Assembly (NCBI RefSeq): GCF_041378895.1
Contig: NZ_CP144212.1
Span: forward strand, 523,001 to 587,000
Direction: 5' to 3'
DNA: 64,000 nt
Source: Dechloromonas sp. ZY10
Lineage (GTDB): Bacteria > Pseudomonadota > Gammaproteobacteria > Burkholderiales > Rhodocyclaceae
A program made the position numbers and the translations under genes. Below are positions 2 to 60,051 of the stretch, piece after piece (the stretch's first letter is position 1; each line of letters begins with the position of its first letter). The notes beneath the pieces were generated by a model that was not told the DNA's origin, searched no databases, and saw only the letters and a program-made list of their open reading frames with translations.

Positions 2-328
2 GACGACCTCTTTGCCAGCTACCGGCGCGGTACCGATTTCATCCAGCAATATGTGTTCCCCGGTGGCATGCTGCCGTCGCCTTCGGCCTTCGGTCGGGCG
101 GCGGTCCGCCAGGGGCTGCGGGTGGGTGGCGAATTTTCCTTCGGGCTGGATTACGCGCGCACGCTGGCGGCCTGGCGGCAGGCTTTCGAGAGCCGGTGGC
201 CGGAAGTTGCCGAGCTGGGGTTCGACGAGCATTTCCGTCGCTTGTGGCGGCTTTATCTGGCTTATTGCGAGGCCGGTTTCCGTGCCGGGAACATCGATGT
301 CGTCCAATTTGAACTGGCGCATCGTTGA
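2..328 (+). CDS. cfa: Cyclopropane-fatty-acyl-phospholipid synthase family protein, 3' end only
   Basis: The window opens inside this gene; the readable frame begins at base 2 and gives the last 108 residues. The C-terminal part has features of the SAM-dependent CFA/mycolic-acid cyclopropane synthase family: FIQQYVFPGGMLPS, then FSFGLDYARTL, and an ending LAYCEAGFRAGNIDVVQFEL. Family members transfer a methyl(ene) group from SAM to unsaturated fatty-acyl chains of membrane phospholipids. It is the first visible gene of a tight plus-strand run with a chalcone-isomerase-like protein, a permease, a lipoprotein, an SDR and a SnoaL-like protein. The N-terminal SAM-binding part lies outside the window, so the exact substrate cannot be judged; a furan- or branched-fatty-acid methyltransferase relative is possible. 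Confidence 0.85.
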   Translation, partial: DDLFASYRRGTDFIQQYVFPGGMLPSPSAFGRAAVRQGLRVGGEFSFGLDYARTLAAWRQAFESRWPEVAELGFDEHFRRLWRLYLAYCEAGFRAGNIDVVQFELAHR

Positions 329-389
329 CCTGGTTGCGCCGGGCGCCCGCCAGCCCGGTGGTCACGGTCAACCGCCGAATCCGGCCAAA

Positions 390-911
390 ATGCCGGTGCT
401 CGACGCAGCCCGACGACGCTACTTGCTGGCGTTCGCAGGCCTGCCTCTGGCCGCCTTTGCCGACCCGGTGCTGGAATCCCCGTGGCCGGGCCTACGCCGT
501 TGGGGGCAGGGCGAATTCAGCCGTTTCGGTTTTCGAATCTACCGGGCCACGTTGTGGGCTGGTGACGACCTGCGGCGGCCACCGCTGGCCTTGCGTCTGG
601 ATTATCACCGGGCGATCCGCAGCAGCCAGATTGTCGATGCCAGCTTGCGCGAGATGCGCACCCTTGGGACCAGCGAAGTTGCGCTGGAACGCTGGGGGGC
701 GCGCCTCGCCGCGTTGCTGCCGGATGTTCGGCCAGGCGATTACATCGTCGGGGTGCACCGCGGTGATGCGGCCTGGTTTGCTCACAACGGCCGTTTTCTT
801 GGCGAAATCGCCGAAGCCGCCTTTGCCGACGCATTCTTTGCCATCTGGCTCGACCCGCGGACCAGCGAACCCGGTTTGCGCCAGGCTTTGCTAGGCTCCG
901 CAGGTGGTTGA
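390..911 (+). CDS. Chalcone-isomerase-like exported protein
   Basis: A protein of 173 residues. The first ~25 residues (MPVLDAARRRYLLAFAGLPL, then AAFADP) look like a signal peptide with a twin-arginine-like start. The body resembles the bacterial chalcone-isomerase-like family: GFRIYRATLWAG, ALRLDYHRAI, EMRTLG, NGRFLGEI, AFFAIWLDPRTSEP, then LRQALLG at the end. Bacterial members are not flavonoid enzymes; the fold is thought to bind fatty acids or related ligands. The open frame reaches upstream through ATG 297, which would overlap cfa by 32 bases and add a non-family leader, so ATG 390 is preferred. It sits between cfa and an MFS permease, so a role in handling modified lipids is inferred. 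Confidence 0.75.
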   Translation: MPVLDAARRRYLLAFAGLPLAAFADPVLESPWPGLRRWGQGEFSRFGFRIYRATLWAGDDLRRPPLALRLDYHRAIRSSQIVDASLREMRTLGTSEVALERWGARLAALLPDVRPGDYIVGVHRGDAAWFAHNGRFLGEIAEAAFADAFFAIWLDPRTSEPGLRQALLGSAGG

Positions 912-9295: not shown

Positions 9296-10975
9296 ATGAA
9301 CCCGCAAGCTACCGGCAAGTACGTCCCTTTTCCGCCTGTTCCGTTGGTTGACCGTGAATGGCCGGGGCGAGTGATTGCGCAGGCACCGGTCTGGATGAGC
9401 ACCGATCTGCGCGACGGCAACCAGGCCTTGTTCGAGCCGATGAACATCGATAAGAAAATGCGGATGTTCAAGACCCTGTGCGAGATCGGCTTCAAGGAAA
9501 TCGAGGTCGCCTTTCCGTCGGCATCGCAGACCGAGTTCGACTTTGTCCGCCAATTGATCGAGGAAGGGCACATCCCCGACGGCGTCACCATCGAGGTGTT
9601 GACCCAGGCTCGCGAACATCTGATCCGCCGTACCTTCGAGTCGCTCAAGGGCGCCAAGCGGGCCATCGTCCACGTCTATAACGCAACCTGCAAGACCTTC
9701 CGCGAAACCGTGTTCAACATGAGCAAGGCCGAGGTGGTCAACATGGCGACCGATGCCGTGCGCCTGATCCGGACCCTCGCCGACGAGATGCCGGAAACCG
9801 AGATCGTTCTCGAATACAGCCCGGAATTGTTTACCGCGACCGAACTCGAATTCGCCAAGGAAGTGTGCGACGCGGTGACCGAAGTCTGGGGCGCGACGCC
9901 ACAGCGTAAGGTGATCCTCAACTTGCCGACCACGGTCGAGATCGCCACGCCCAATATTTATGCCGACCAGATCGAATGGATGCACAAGAATCTGGCCCGC
10001 CGCGACAGCGTGTTGATCAGCCTCCACCCGCACAACGACCGTGGTACTGCCGTCGCAGCTGCCGAACTCGGCCTGATGGCCGGTGCCGATCGGGTTGAAG
10101 GTTGCCTGTTCGGTAACGGCGAGCGGACCGGCAACGTCGATCTGGTCACCCTCGCGCTCAACATGTTCACCCAAGGCGTCGATCCGCAACTCGATTTCTC
10201 GGACATCAACGCCGTTGCGCGGACTTACGAACACTGTACCCAGCTCCCGGTCCATCCGCGCCACCCATACGTCGGGGACCTCGTATTCACGGCCTTCTCA
10301 GGCTCCCACCAGGATGCCATCAAGAAGGGGTTTGCCGCGCAAAAGGCGGACGAGCTTTGGACAGTGCCCTACTTGCCGATTGATCCGGCCGATGTCGGGC
10401 GCAGCTACGAATCGGTGATCCGGGTCAATAGCCAGTCGGGCAAGGGCGGCATCGCCTACCTGCTCGAAACCGAATACGGCATTGCCATGCCGCGCCGGAT
10501 GCAGGTCGAGTTCTCGTCGGTGGTGCAGCAGCATACCGACCAGCATGGCGGGGAAATGAGCGCGGCCGCTTTGTGGTCCTTGTTCAGCACCACCTTTATT
10601 ACGCCGCCAGGGCCGGTGCGCTACCGCGAGCATCACCTGTTCGAGCAGGATGGGCGCCAGGGTATCCGGCTGGTGGTCGAAATCGACGGGGTGGCCCATG
10701 TGCTTAGCGGCCAGGGCAATGGGCCGATCGATGCTACGGTCCACGCCTTGCAGCAGGCCAATATCGTGCTTGAGGTGCGCAATTACGAGGAACGTTCGCT
10801 CGGTGCCGGCGGCGAAGCCAAGGCCTGCGCCATCCTCGAAATCGCCATGCCGGGCGTCAGCGGTGAACGGCACGGCGTTGCCATTGATGCCAATATCGTT
10901 ACCGCATCGGTTCTGGCGATGCTGGCGGGAGTCAATCGCCAATTGGTGGCGCAGGCGGTGCGCAGGGCCGCCTGA
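9296..10975 (+). CDS. leuA: 2-isopropylmalate synthase (long type 2 form)
   Basis: 559 residues. It catalyses the first committed step of leucine synthesis, condensing acetyl-CoA with 2-oxoisovalerate. The start [17 protein letters not shown] and the catalytic motif [15 protein letters not shown] are typical of the long type-2 LeuA found in actinobacteria and some betaproteobacteria. The HMGL-like barrel carries [16 protein letters not shown], and [17 protein letters not shown] supplies metal and substrate residues. The C-terminal LeuA dimer domain (about 430-555) gives leucine feedback inhibition. It is monocistronic: an Lrp-family gene lies upstream and a strong terminator hairpin follows nine bases after the stop. 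Confidence 0.96.
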
Positions 10976-18970: not shown

Positions 18971-19474
18971 ATGTCGTATCTTTCGCTTTTTCCCTCGTTT
19001 TCACGGTCGACCGTGAACATTGCCCTATTTGCGCTGCTGGCGCAGCCGGCCGTCGGCTTGCCCGACGAACACCCGCACGGCAGCGGTGAGGATCGCCGCC
19101 AGCTGCTCACCCTGAGCGCCGGCGAGAAACATTTCCTGCTCTCGGAAATGCGTCATTTCCTCGCCGTTACCCAGCGCATCCTGGCTGCCGGCCTGCGCGG
19201 CGAGATGCAGGAGGTGGCTGCCGCCGCCGCCTCGGCCGGGCTCAAGGCCCACCGCGCCGACCTGGCTGACCCCAATTCGCCGCTGCAGGGCATCCGGCGC
19301 AAAGCCCCGGCCGCCTTTTTCCCGCTCGGCAAGGCAACGCACGAAGCCTTCGACGAGATCGCCGAAGTTGCGACAGCCATCGGCGACAAGGACGCGGTCA
19401 ACCGCCTGCTGGCCGACAATCTGCAGCGCTGCGTCGCCTGCCACGCCAATTACCGCGTTGGCGACGGGCACTGA
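18971..19474 (+). CDS. Cytochrome c'-like exported protein
   Basis: 167 residues. The N-terminal 29 or so form a signal peptide (ALFALLAQPAVG). A single heme c motif CVACH sits near the C-terminus (154-158) followed by ANYRV, the arrangement of cytochrome c' (CxxCH near the end of a four-helix bundle). The middle is helical (SEMRHFLAVTQRILAAGLRGEM). Cytochromes c' bind NO and related gases in the periplasm; no axial ligand can be assigned here. The N-terminal coding sequence contains an 18-bp perfect copy of the GTCGAC palindrome, so a GTG at 19012 is an alternative start. It follows the TonB receptor and converges with rsmI. Confidence 0.7.
   Translation: MSYLSLFPSFSRSTVNIALFALLAQPAVGLPDEHPHGSGEDRRQLLTLSAGEKHFLLSEMRHFLAVTQRILAAGLRGEMQEVAAAAASAGLKAHRADLADPNSPLQGIRRKAPAAFFPLGKATHEAFDEIAEVATAIGDKDAVNRLLADNLQRCVACHANYRVGDGH
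19000..19017. repeat. Dispersed GTCGAC palindrome inside a signal-peptide coding region
   Basis: TTCACGGTCGACCGTGAA is a perfect 18-bp palindrome. It encodes part of the n-region of the cytochrome c'-like signal peptide. It shares its 14-bp core CACGGTCGACCGTG with the sites at 22368, 43142 and 46196. Confidence 0.9.
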
Positions 19475-22344: not shown

Positions 22345-22356
22345 ACCCGGCGATTT

Positions 22357-22392
22357 TGCCGTTTTGCCACGGTCGACCGTGGCAAAACGGCA
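22357..22392. repeat. 36-bp perfect palindrome with GTCGAC core between convergent genes
   Basis: A 36-bp perfect inverted repeat centred on GGTCGACC, with arms TGCCGTTTTGCCAC and its complement. It lies between the stop codons of dolP (plus) and the EamA permease (minus) and could terminate both transcripts: T runs flank it on the right and A/T on the left. The central CACGGTCGACCGTG is shared with three other palindromes in the window. Confidence 0.9.
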
Positions 22393-22401
22393 TTTTTGCT
22401 T

Positions 22402-43106: not shown

Positions 43107-43141
43107 AACCGGCCGGACGCCAGCGGATTTTTGCGGTTGCC

Positions 43142-43155
43142 CACGGTCGACCGTG
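43142..43155. repeat. GTCGAC palindrome core between convergent genes
   Basis: CACGGTCGACCGTG, a 14-bp perfect palindrome with weakly complementary flanks (TTG/CAA-type pairing broken by mismatches). It lies between the small Cys-rich gene (plus) and lysR (minus), the same convergent setting as 22357 and 46185. Confidence 0.8.
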
Positions 43156-43178
43156 AAAAACACCGAAATTCGCCGTCT

Positions 43179-44713: not shown

Positions 44714-46168
<1,455 letters not shown>

Positions 46169-46184
46169 ACCCGCTGCGGCTTTT

Positions 46185-46220
46185 TGGCGCTTTTTCACGG
46201 TCGACCGTGAAAGAGCGCCA
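46185..46220. repeat. 36-bp near-perfect palindrome with GTCGAC core between gdhA and pepN
   Basis: A 36-bp dyad centred on GGTCGACC with one mismatched pair; arms TGGCGCTTTTTCAC and GTGAAAGAGCGCCA. It sits between the stops of gdhA (plus) and pepN (minus) and probably terminates both. It has the same length and core as the element at 22357, while the outer arms differ but stay complementary. Confidence 0.9.
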
Positions 46221-46228
46221 TTTTCCGT

Positions 46229-48832
46229 TTACCCGCCGAGCGCCCGGCTGACCACTTCGGCGACATCGCGCGACAGTCCGGCATGGTCGCGGATGCGTTC
46301 GAGCGCGGCGCGAGCGTGCGCCTGGCGGCCGGCGTCGAACTTCTTCCAGCGGTCGAAACTGCGCGCCAGGCGCGAGGCCACCTGCGGGTTGCGGTCGTTA
46401 AGCGCGATCACCTGTTCGGCCATGAAGGCGTAGCCGCTGCCGTCGGCGGCGTGAAAGCGCGCGAGATTAGCGCCGAAGGCGCGGATCAGCGCATAGACTT
46501 TGTTCGGATTGCCGAGGTCGAAGGCCGGGTGCGCGGTCAGCGCCTTGACCGTGGCCAGCGTGTCGGGGCGGCGGCTGGTCGATTGCACCTGCAGCCATTT
46601 GTCGACCACCAGCGCCTCGTGCTGCCATTGCGCGTAGAAGTCGGCCAGTGCCTGCTCGCGCTGCGGGCAGGGATCGGCATTCACATTGGCCAGCGCCGCC
46701 AGCGCCGCGAACTGGTCGGTCATGTTGTCGGCCTGCGCGAACTGGCTGGCGGCCAGGCGATAGCTGGCGGCGTCGGCGAGTTCGAGCAGGTAGCCGAGGC
46801 AGACGTTGCGCAGCGCGCGGCGGCCGGCCTGCTCGCGGCTCGGTGCATAGGGCTCATTCACGGTCAACGCCGCGTAGAGGCCGGAAAACTCGCCTTCGAG
46901 CTGTTCGGCGAGGTGGCGGCGCAGGGCATTGCGCGCGGCGTGCAGGGCCTCCGGATTGACCTCTGCCAGCAGTTCGGCCAGCGTGCCTTCGCCGGGCAGG
47001 GTGAGGGCTTCGGCGACGAAGGCCGCGCCGCGCTCGGCTTGCGTCTGGAGCAGGCGGCGGCAGGCAGCGGTGAAGGTCTCCGGCCACTGCGGCTGACGCC
47101 CGGCGGCGATTTCGGCGGTGGCGTCGAGGATCAGCGTGGTGGCGAGGCGCTGGCCGGCTTCCCAGGCATTGAACGAGTCGCTTTCGTGCGCCAGCAGCAG
47201 GGCCAGTTGTTCCGGGCTGTAGGCGAAGTCGAGATAGACCGGCGCCGAGAAATCGCGCAGCAGCGACGGTACCGGCTCGGCGGCGAGGTCGTTGAAGACG
47301 AAGGACTGGCTGCTGGCGGTGAGCTGCAGGGTGCGCTCGCTGCCCGGCAGCAGTGCGCCGCTCTCCGCGAACAAGGCGACGCGGACCGGGATCAGGTAAG
47401 GCTGTTCATCGCTGGCCTTGGCGTTGCTCTGGCTCAGAGTCAGCGTGTAGCTCCGCGATTCCGGGTCGAAATGGCCGTCGACCGTGACTTTAGGCGTGCC
47501 CGGCTGGCGGTACCAGCGCATGAACTGGCTGAAATCGAAGCCGGAGGCTGCCGCCATCGCCGCGACGAAATCCTCGCAGGTCACCGCCTGCCCGTCGTGG
47601 CGGCGGAAGTATTCGTCCATCCCGGCGCGGAAGGCGTCGCGGCCGATCAGCGTCTGGATCATGCGGATCACCTCGGCGCCCTTTTCATAGACCGTCGCGG
47701 TGTAGAAATTGTTGATCTCGATATAGGACTCGGGCCGGATCGGGTGCGCCATCGGGCCGGCGTCTTCCGGGAACTGCGCGGCGCGCAGGGTGCGTACCTC
47801 GCGGATGCGGGCGGTCTGGCGGTTGTGCAGGTCGGCGCCGAATTCCTGGTCGCGGAAGACGGTCAGGCCTTCCTTCAGCGACAGCTGGAACCACTCGCGG
47901 CAGGTGACGCGGTTGCCGGTCCAGTTGTGGAAGTATTCATGCGCGACGACCCGGTCGATGTTCTCGAAATCGACGTCGGTAGCGACATCCGGGCGGGCCA
48001 GCACGTACTTGGTATTGAAGATGTTGAGGCCCTTGTTCTCCATCGCGCCCATGTTGAAATCGCCGACGGCGACGATCATGTAATGGTCAAGGTCGCATTC
48101 GAGGCCGAAGCGTTCTTCGTCCCACTTCATCGACTTCTCGAGCGCGGCCATCGCGTGCGGGCATTGGTCGAGCTTGCCCGGCTCGACGTAGATCGCCAGC
48201 TGCACGGTACGGCCGGAGGCGGTGGTGAAGGTGTCGCGCAGCACGTCGAGCTTGCCGGCGACGACGGCAAACAGATAGGCCGGCTTCTTGAACGGGTCTT
48301 CCCACTTGGCCCAGTGTTTGCCGTTGGCTTCGTCTCCGGCAGCGACCGGGTTGCCGTTGGCGAGCAGGACCGGGAAGGTCGCTTTATCGGCGTGCAGGGT
48401 TACGGTATAGACCGACATCACGTCCGGGCGGTCGAGGAACCAGGTGATGCGGCGGAAGCCCTGCGCCTCGCACTGGGTGAAATAGCCGTCTCGCGAGCGG
48501 TAAAGGCCGGAGAGGCGGGTGTTGCGGTCGGGCTGGATGCGCACCACGGTCTGCAGCGTGCACTGGTCGGGCAAGGCATCCACGGTCAACGTGCGCTCAG
48601 TGACCAAAAACGGCACTTCCTGGCCGTCGACCGTGAGCGACAGGGTGTCCAGTTCCTCGCCGTCGAGCACCAGCGGCTGCGCCGGCTGCTCAAGGTTGCG
48701 GCGCAAGGCCAGGCGGCTGGTGACCGTGGTCCCGTCGGCGGCGATTACGAAGTCGAGATCGACCCGGTCGATCCACCAGGCGGGCGGAGTGTAGTCCTTG
48801 AGATAAATGGTCGGGGCGGTATCGGTGTTCAT
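46229..48832 (-). CDS. pepN: Aminopeptidase N (M1 metallopeptidase)
   Basis: 867 residues, the normal length. GAMENKGLN (substrate binding) and the zinc motif HEYFHNWTGNR followed by LKEGLTVFRDQEF are present; the remainder matches the alanyl aminopeptidase class including the C-terminal helical domain. It releases N-terminal amino acids from peptides in the cytoplasm. The start MNTDTAPTIYLKDYTPP is typical. Four copies of the dispersed motif (46859, 47477, 48581, 48626) lie inside it, the densest cluster in any one gene. Confidence 0.97.
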   Translation of the reverse strand: MNTDTAPTIYLKDYTPPAWWIDRVDLDFVIAADGTTVTSRLALRRNLEQPAQPLVLDGEELDTLSLTVDGQEVPFLVTERTLTVDALPDQCTLQTVVRIQPDRNTRLSGLYRSRDGYFTQCEAQGFRRITWFLDRPDVMSVYTVTLHADKATFPVLLANGNPVAAGDEANGKHWAKWEDPFKKPAYLFAVVAGKLDVLRDTFTTASGRTVQLAIYVEPGKLDQCPHAMAALEKSMKWDEERFGLECDLDHYMIVAVGDFNMGAMENKGLNIFNTKYVLARPDVATDVDFENIDRVVAHEYFHNWTGNRVTCREWFQLSLKEGLTVFRDQEFGADLHNRQTARIREVRTLRAAQFPEDAGPMAHPIRPESYIEINNFYTATVYEKGAEVIRMIQTLIGRDAFRAGMDEYFRRHDGQAVTCEDFVAAMAAASGFDFSQFMRWYRQPGTPKVTVDGHFDPESRSYTLTLSQSNAKASDEQPYLIPVRVALFAESGALLPGSERTLQLTASSQSFVFNDLAAEPVPSLLRDFSAPVYLDFAYSPEQLALLLAHESDSFNAWEAGQRLATTLILDATAEIAAGRQPQWPETFTAACRRLLQTQAERGAAFVAEALTLPGEGTLAELLAEVNPEALHAARNALRRHLAEQLEGEFSGLYAALTVNEPYAPSREQAGRRALRNVCLGYLLELADAASYRLAASQFAQADNMTDQFAALAALANVNADPCPQREQALADFYAQWQHEALVVDKWLQVQSTSRRPDTLATVKALTAHPAFDLGNPNKVYALIRAFGANLARFHAADGSGYAFMAEQVIALNDRNPQVASRLARSFDRWKKFDAGRQAHARAALERIRDHAGLSRDVAEVVSRALGG

Positions 48833-59268: not shown

Positions 59269-60051
59269 ATGGCCAGCGACGGCGTTCTCGCCGGCCGGAC
59301 CATCGTCGTGACCCGGCCGCTGGCCCAATGCGGGCCGCTGGCCGAGGCGATCCGAGCCGCTGGCGGCGAGCCGCTGGTCTTTCCCCTGCTCGAAATCCTG
59401 CCGGCCGATGATCCGGCACCTTTGGTGGCGGCGGTTGAGCAGCTGGCCAGCTACCGGGTGGCGATTTTCATCAGCCCAAACGCGGTCGACCACGCCTTGC
59501 CGGCGATTATCGCGGCTGGCGGCTGGCCGGCCGGCTTGCTGCCGGCGGCGGTCGGCCAGGGTACGGTCAAGGCCCTGGCGGCGCATGGCGTGCATGGCTG
59601 CATCGCGCCGACCGAGCGTTTTGACTCGGAGGCCTTGCTCGAACTCCCCGAGCTCGCGAGGGAGCGGATCGCCGGCCAGCGGATCGCGATCTTTCGCGGC
59701 GACGGCGGCCGCGAACTGCTCGGCGACACCCTGCGTGCGCGCGGTGCGACGGTCGATCCGGTGACCTGTTACCGTCGCCTCGGCCCGTCGGCCGGTGCCC
59801 AGCCCCTGCTGGCTGCCTGGAAAAATCGGTCTCTCGATGCGTTGACCGTGTCGAGCAGCGAAGGCCTGCGTTACCTCTGGGATTTGCTGCCGGAAGAAGG
59901 GCGCTTGGCGCTCGCGGAAACCCCGGTTTTCGTGCCGCATGCCAGAATTGCCGAAAATGCTAAAATCATCGGTTTGCAAAAAATAATCCTTACCGAAGCG
60001 GCGGATCAGGGCATTTTGCGCGCCCTGCGTGCTTATAATTGGCAGCGATGA
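59269..60051 (+). CDS. hemD: Uroporphyrinogen-III synthase
   Basis: 260 residues. GRTIVVTRPLAQCGPLAEAIRAAGGEPLVFPLLEI and VAIFISPNAVDHAL are typical, with the C-terminal SSSEGLRYLWDLLP and VFVPHARIAENAKIIG. The family is divergent, so assignment also relies on the hemC neighbour. It closes the linear hydroxymethylbilane ring with inversion. hemX/hemY, which often follow, are absent here. Confidence 0.92.
   Translation: MASDGVLAGRTIVVTRPLAQCGPLAEAIRAAGGEPLVFPLLEILPADDPAPLVAAVEQLASYRVAIFISPNAVDHALPAIIAAGGWPAGLLPAAVGQGTVKALAAHGVHGCIAPTERFDSEALLELPELARERIAGQRIAIFRGDGGRELLGDTLRARGATVDPVTCYRRLGPSAGAQPLLAAWKNRSLDALTVSSSEGLRYLWDLLPEEGRLALAETPVFVPHARIAENAKIIGLQKIILTEAADQGILRALRAYNWQR

Follow-up and report, generated by a model that had tools for sequence, protein, structure and literature searches.

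The window analysed here, a stretch of 64,000 nucleotides, corresponds to positions 523001-587000 of the 3,568,927-bp genome of Dechloromonas sp. ZY10 (G000). In this window a gdhA-like gene on the + strand (44822..46168; Aromatoleum gave the best identity, 84-85%, among the matches listed) converges with a pepN-like gene on the - strand (46229..48832), both names being those of the first-pass annotation. The short gap between them harbours a two-sided element without strand, which extends from outer A/T tract to outer A/T tract over 46181..46224. Its 14-bp palindromic core, CACGGTCGACCGTG (46196..46209, likewise without strand), is flanked on the left by an inner tract TTTTT (46191..46195) and an outer tract TTTTT (46181..46185), and on the right by an inner A-rich tract AAAGA (46210..46214) and an outer tract ATTTT (46220..46224). 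The dyad is centred at 46202/46203, where ten pairs, a mismatch at offset 11 and seven more pairs make up complementary arms of 18 bp (46185..46220), and a foldable terminator-like hairpin is followed by TTTT on the + (gdhA) strand. The computed RNA fold of 46185-46220 had an energy of -28.6 kcal/mol (z -7.4) on the + strand, where the arm mismatch becomes a U-G pair, and of -24.8 kcal/mol on the - strand. The first-pass annotation had described a 36-bp dyad in this gap, with the same core as a dyad at 22357-22392 and with outer arms complementary save for one mismatch, and both its position and its pairing were borne out.

The dyad at 22357-22392 has perfect arms of 18 bp and belongs to a second two-sided element (22353..22396, core 22368-22381); stable RNA folds were obtained for both dyads (centres 46202 and 22374). 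A third element (18987..19030, core 19002-19015) and a fourth (43127..43170, core 43142-43155) have the identical 14-bp core, the third with the same A/T patches, and their arms are complementary only to 9 bp and 7 bp from the centre, respectively, the latter being unpaired past the core. All three, like the first, lie in convergent gaps. In the whole window the 14-mer CACGGTCGACCGTG occurred four times exactly, never with one mismatch and twice with two mismatches, as against 0.41 expected for all these together, while the shorter GGTCGACC occurred ten times against 1.39 expected. A half-element pattern, GGTCRACC-N5-WW-N7-WWW with the two strands summed, matched nine times, five of them inside the four two-sided elements, against 0.03 expected. 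One-sided half-elements were located at 366..390 on the + strand (GGTCAACC with phased A/T) and at 9329..9353 on the - strand, both weaker members of the family, at 45118..45142 on the + strand inside gdhA, which is of the weakest kind and possibly due to chance, and at 59484..59508 on the + strand, a weak one which is also possibly due to chance.

The element is abundant in the 3.57-Mb genome of G000. We counted 164 exact copies of CACGGTCGACCGTG against 0 for the reversed pattern, 507 copies with up to two mismatches against 40 for the control, and 588 half-element matches, in which a two-sided site can count twice. Half-elements showed no clear strand bias, the split between forward and reverse strands being 280/308 in G000, 281/290 in its relative G301 and 289/308 in another relative, G342. 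The spacing of exact copies was random (CV 1.05 for the first 100 in G000, near-copies left out). The strict two-sided G000-type pattern had 0 matches in viral contigs, and in plasmids a single 18-bp match was judged to be due to chance. Exact copies were somewhat denser at 1.6-2.0 Mb (28 in 400 kb as against about 18 expected), and the GC skew of G000 switches at about 1.75 Mb; in the first 2.07 Mb no exclusion zone was seen at this switch, which showed a mild excess instead.

The anatomy of the element was determined from the first 100 of the 164 exact copies, at positions up to 2.07 Mb. These copies shared a two-sided design of about 44 bp, in which the palindromic core is accompanied by patches of A/T at positions ±8..12 and ±18..22, with G/C between them. 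The A/T share by column was 96-99% at ±19..21, 75-87% at ±9..11 and 7-17% at ±14..15, in a window of 65% GC, and little conservation was found beyond ±23. AAA and TTT were about equally frequent as outer patches, and left and right were independent of each other (AA 27, TA 26, AT 22, TT 22, other 3). The left-right complementarity of the outer tracts at ±19..21 equalled that expected, and TpA was rare in the outer patches (6 of the 683 A/T-A/T steps). Since the outer patches are A/T in either direction and independent on the two sides, they point to a helically phased element in duplex DNA and not to a stem.

Placement was assessed with gene calls from our own codon-score predictor and not from an annotation. 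The 100 copies were distributed over convergent gaps (39), tandem gaps (31), divergent gaps (5) and coding sequence (19), with 6 undetermined. Convergent gaps were enriched (39 of 75 site gaps vs 13 of 90 control gaps, p 3e-7) and divergent, i.e. promoter, gaps were depleted (5 of 75 vs 29 of 90, p 4e-5), the control gaps being a non-random set made up of the element-free gaps of the same loci, which were chosen for holding a copy, and of all window gaps of at least 44 bp, including those of its own four elements. The median distance to the nearest stop codon was 48 bp, and 24 of the 31 tandem copies were closer to the upstream stop than to the downstream start. Copies within genes are also common in relatives with a one-sided form: 34 of 71 half-elements in G342 were coding, in sequence that is 82% coding (20 in the same and 14 in the opposite orientation to the gene), as were 14 of 30 sites in G301 and G353 taken together, with orientations relative to the gene divided 7/7.

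Within the set of genomes that we searched, the element was restricted to a single genus, Dechloromonas. The two-sided pattern W3-N14-GGTCGACC-N14-W3, run over the order (399 genomes), gave more than three matches only in this genus. Of the 60 genomes of the genus, 32 had 89-682 half-elements and 28 had 2-41, while controls did not exceed 14; the highest count, 682, was that of G351 (about 4.1 Mb). Outside the genus 394 genomes were searched, of which none had more than 25 half-elements, the top one (G086) having 25 against 13 for its control and the next one 15, and a few of them exceeded their control by up to about 9 (G263, for example, with 11 vs 2). Within the genus the distribution is patchy. 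When presence (at least 80 matches) is mapped on a PepN tree of 30 members, eight changes are needed, five of them forced by well-supported branches, and its clustering barely exceeds that of shuffled labels (62 of 500 shuffles were as low). G330 and G327, neighbours on this tree with support 94/95, had 461 and 16 matches, respectively. No other cores were seen in samples of 60-120 kb from the element-poor relatives G334, G343, G346 and G315.

The arms beside the shared centre CGGTCGACCG differ between species. CAC/GTG is the dialect of G000 and of its sister species G310, whereas G338 has mainly AGC/GCT (56 of its 134 sites examined), G111 mainly TGC/GCA (46 sites) and G329 either CGC/GCG or TGC/GCA (29 of 64 sites). 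Few sites were available for two further relatives: G330 showed GAC/GTC in four rows, representing at most three different sites (near-matches 342 vs 54), and G318 showed CAC/GTG at one site (near-matches 227 vs 26). On these few sites G318, with a PepN 80% identical, has the G000 dialect, and G330, at 84%, has not.

A one-sided form of the element came to light in genomes where near-matches were many and two-sided sites few. At 30 sites of G301 and G353, CCACGGTCRACCGGG was followed by 3' A/T patches at +8..12, +18..22 and +25..28, and the left side showed only a T at -10. G342, which is rich in the one-sided form, had 79 copies of GGTCAACC in 480 kb when no A/T filter was applied, with 3' A/T patches at +7..12 and +18..22 and a weaker one at +25..28. 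Its A/T share reached 0.90 on the right, whereas the rise on the left was weaker, up to 0.67 (in the row of GGTTGACC), and the control CCAACTGG (37 copies in G342) displayed no A/T pattern. The core of G342 is TGCGGTCAACCGG, which contains GCGGT. The 11-mer CGGTCAACCGG occurred in G342 39 times exactly and 67 times with one mismatch, as compared to 3 and 29 for the reversed control, a strong consensus, although in strict terms one-mismatch copies still outnumber or equal exact ones. The element is mainly one-sided in the three relatives G301, G353 and G342, though not absolutely so in G342.

Sequence-specific DNA uptake has been described from two families only, according to the excerpted text of PMC1626085 and PMC7811141, and the features of the uptake sequences concerned, USS and DUS, are set out in excerpts of PMC1626085, PMC3630211, PMC12616744, PMC7811141 and PMC5217627. 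The USS of Pasteurellaceae consist of a 9-nt core and two A/T-rich segments 3' of it (excerpts of PMC1626085 and PMC12616744), a low-copy case being that of H. ducreyi, tabulated in the excerpt of PMC1626085; terminator use is reported, in the same excerpted literature, for both DUS and USS. The Dechloromonas element resembles these USS in having a core with two 3' A/T patches about a helical turn apart (in G342 and in G301/G353, and on both sides in G000). It is also like them in its clade-specific variants, its occurrence on both strands, its preference for non-coding sequence with many copies in genes, its terminator use and its strong consensus. Moreover, GCGGT is found in both USS cores (Hin AAGTGCGGT, Apl ACAAGCGGT) and in the G342, G111 and G338 dialects, although neither AAGTGCGGT nor ACAAGCGGT occurs as the core of the element, and GCGGT, in some dialects, is all that is common. 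The first A/T patch follows GCGGT by about 9 nt in Dechloromonas, which is further than in Haemophilus USS, where it follows by 2-3 nt. Unlike USS, the element has a several-fold lower density, a longer core (10-14 bp) and random spacing, and is palindromic and two-sided in G000 and several relatives.

The hosts of the Neisseriaceae DUS are Betaproteobacteria, as is Dechloromonas. The element shares with DUS its species dialects and its association with terminators, and its dyad overlap recalls Simonsiella muelleri, in which the excerpt of PMC3630211 describes an overlapping dyad arrangement of DUS with 1294 occurrences. DUS are, however, continuous, up to about 13 nt long and free of A/T patches, number in the thousands and have ComP as the protein that binds them, as the excerpted accounts have it, whereas the Dechloromonas element has hundreds of copies, no sequence relation to DUS and a core that is not of the GCCGTCTGAA type. 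The excerpt of PMC5217627 also reports two unexplained intergenic motifs, GCTTAT-N5-AAGCG in Acidovorax ebreus (114 copies; 44 convergent, 4 divergent and 59 co-oriented) and a spaced motif in Polaromonas naphthalenivorans (about 100 copies, near gene ends). They are like the Dechloromonas element in numbering about 100, in being mostly intergenic near gene ends and in a similar preference for convergent gaps, but differ in sequence, and a core with phased A/T is not described in that excerpt.

The core with 3' A/T patches, the dialects, the presence on both strands, the coding as well as non-coding copies, the strong consensus and the terminators make an uptake sequence the most likely reading. 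The copy number, the restriction to the genus, the separate origin of the copies and the patchy presence fit this reading too. We therefore propose, at about even probability, that the element is a candidate, undescribed family of DNA uptake sequences (DUS/USS) with dialects, dyad-symmetric in G000. The wider proposal, to which we give a probability just short of even, is that Dechloromonas and its close relatives, environmental Betaproteobacteria, have a putative third uptake sequence system that evolved independently of the two in Pasteurellaceae and Neisseriaceae, comprises five or more dialects and an orientation-free dyad form, and was gained and lost repeatedly within the genus. Among the open-licence papers listed, none was seen to deal with competence or uptake sequences in Dechloromonas, which is weak evidence of novelty.

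According to this proposal, the DNA receptor of a competence type IV pilus would bind double-stranded DNA at the core (CGGTCRACCG with an arm that differs between species), and the A/T patches, at one and two turns of the helix 3' of this core, would supply the DNA shape or bendability needed for entry. DNA bearing the element would then be taken up preferentially, and recombination among kin would spread and maintain the element. It would persist at sites where it is harmless, chiefly those between genes that converge. In G000 two half-elements share one palindromic core, a form easily turned into an intrinsic terminator, and the element would accordingly work in both orientations. Several points stand against an uptake role: the density is at most 682 per genome, as compared to about one per kb for known USS and DUS; spacing is random, whereas that of USS is described as more regular; presence of the element does not follow intact comEC; the one-sidedness of G342 is not absolute; the first A/T patch starts further from GCGGT than in Haemophilus USS; and the two-sided form and strong 3'-end bias in G000 also suit an intracellular DNA-binding protein. 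It is an old argument whether uptake specificity evolved for kin recognition or is a by-product of receptor preference. A genus with one-sided, two-sided and near-empty relatives, and with dialects, would provide a natural experiment on this argument and on how receptor specificity changes.

The alternative that survives best, though we regard it as rather unlikely, is that the element is the site of a putative sequence-specific DNA-bending protein of the chromosome, be it nucleoid-associated, a marker of domain boundaries or a roadblock. About 44 bp of DNA might be wrapped around such a protein, which would contact the core through the major groove and meet the A/T patches where narrow minor grooves face it, at ±10 and ±20. 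The two-fold symmetry of the site, with A/T one and two turns of the helix away and G/C in the intervening stretches, the near-absence of TpA from the outer patches, and the avoidance of divergent and preference for convergent gaps are consistent with it. The nucleoid-occlusion and domain sites of SlmA, Noc and MatP, which are palindromic and present in tens to hundreds of copies, are similar to the Dechloromonas element in these respects. We know of no one-sided form of SlmA, Noc or MatP sites, however, and in the first 2.07 Mb of G000 the GC-skew switch showed a mild excess of copies and no exclusion zone. The mainly one-sided form in three relatives, the eight changes of presence on a 30-member tree, with neighbours as different as G330 and G327, the arm dialects within one genus, the very strong core consensus and the random spacing argue against a chromosomal protein. 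Were it the site of such a protein, the element would reveal an architectural system that evolves fast and by which convergent gene ends are marked. Under either reading, uptake sequence or protein site, the 'covarying hairpin' should be taken first as duplex DNA.

The first-pass annotation had instead concluded from the differing but complementary arms at 46185-46220 and 22357-22392 that the hairpin itself is selected, i.e. that these elements are a family of RNA or terminator hairpins maintained for their stem. As an account of the family as a whole we consider this improbable. The two dyads are paralogous copies at different places, so the difference between their arms alone is no proof of compensation, and the copies with cores at 19002-19015 and 43142-43155 lack long complementary arms, the very observation that the annotation had named as refuting its reading. 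Arm complementarity at offsets 8-16 of the 100 copies was bimodal. Thirteen copies paired at all 9 positions, as against 0.18 expected when arms were re-paired between copies; 17 paired at 8 or more and 25 at 7 or more (about 4.5 expected in re-paired copies), whereas 75 paired at 6 or fewer. The outer patches showed no covariation between the arms.

The comparison with G310 gave a similar picture. The two site lists were partial (50 of 239 sites for G310 and 130 of at least 254 for G000), and eight of the 50 listed G310 sites matched one of the 130 G000 sites at three or fewer differences, where about one was expected. All eight pairs were orthologous, as their flanks aligned, while looser pairs were mostly due to chance. 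The one orthologous site that is fully paired in both species carried a compensatory change at offset 13 (GAGG/CCTC vs GAGC/GCTC), and at the other seven sites all 13 changed arm pairs (13/13) were uncompensated. An intrinsic terminator made of a G/C stem and a T run was not a property of every copy, in keeping with the 13 of 100 that are fully paired. Near the element, 93 gene ends were considered, a convergent element being counted from both sides: a terminator-like hairpin lay on the element at 17 and elsewhere at 16, and none was detected by our simple rule at 60. By the same rule terminators were rare everywhere, being found at 6 of 30 convergent and 3 of 57 tandem gene ends free of the element. 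The stable folds of the two window dyads, the excess of fully paired copies and the compensated ortholog therefore uphold selection of the hairpin for a terminator-like subset; the 75 poorly paired copies, the non-covarying outer tracts, the 19 copies in coding sequence, the mainly one-sided form of three relatives and an Rfam scan of eight loci, with two matches both far below the gathering threshold, argue against it in general, and we rejected the hairpin as the unit of selection for most copies. A minority of copies, including 46185-46220, became terminator-type hairpins; a stem does not characterise the family as a whole, and hairpin formation is a use to which an element of duplex DNA has been put secondarily.

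Palindromic sites of protein-binding type that come in dialects would also suit the promoter regulon of a transcription factor, but with five of 100 copies in divergent gaps and most tandem copies nearer to the upstream stop this reading was rejected on placement and is highly implausible. Least credible of all is a miniature repeat of MITE or REP type, mobile or copied, that transposition has dispersed. It could explain why the copies number in the hundreds, are scattered and mostly intergenic, and agree so strongly in their core, but we rejected it because the variable positions are independent, copy-to-copy identity being 0.374 at these positions as against 0.380 expected from column composition (flanks 0.287 vs 0.294), so that the copies arose separately; the longest identical block among the 100 copies was 30 bp, and the core dialect varies between species.

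As regards the uptake sequence that we favour, the competence protein ComEC/Rec2 (TIGR00361) was matched in 59 of the 60 genomes of the genus, 53 of them over the cut-off (358.9 bits in G000). ComEC is necessary for competence but common elsewhere, with matches in 12 of 14 control genomes, and is thus weakly informative. In genomes at least 90% complete, the match pieces as we read them showed an interrupted comEC for 5 of the 26 rich in the element and for 5 of the 18 poor in it, and a link between presence of the element and an intact comEC was rejected, there being no association (p 0.72).

In six members of the genus (G301:C33, G304:C9, G317:C8, G343:C1, G355:C1 and G335:C153) comEC appeared split near model positions 145-166, with its parts 5-41 kb apart on one contig; the split point is possibly one at which mobile elements have repeatedly inserted into this competence gene. 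The comEC match of G000 (1305801-1307651, L048) carries an exact copy of the element in its coding sequence, at C1:1307315.

The arrangement of gdhA beside pepN was absent from the sister species G310, and in a tblastn search with the gdhA protein gdhA adjoined pepN in one of 29 other pepN loci, five of which end early, namely that of G349 (L190, 84% identity). The gdhA position in G000 may thus reflect a recent arrival or repeated loss elsewhere. In the gdhA/pepN gap of G349 (L190:830-1500), a core ACGGTCGACCGC flanked by A/T patches lies, together with two degenerate neighbours, amid a different repeat; in this one case the element of the gap is of another dialect and is not a copy of the G000 hairpin. 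In G000, four elements lie within about 650 bp at 279.9-280.6 kb (L013:1500-2170), two of them having their centres separated by 29 bp, downstream of a gene which we take to be lipA. This cluster lies among another repeat, GTTGACCGGCGGGCGTACTTTTCTTG...CAAGAAAAGTAGCC, and a repeat resembling it borders the group of elements found between gdhA and pepN in G349.
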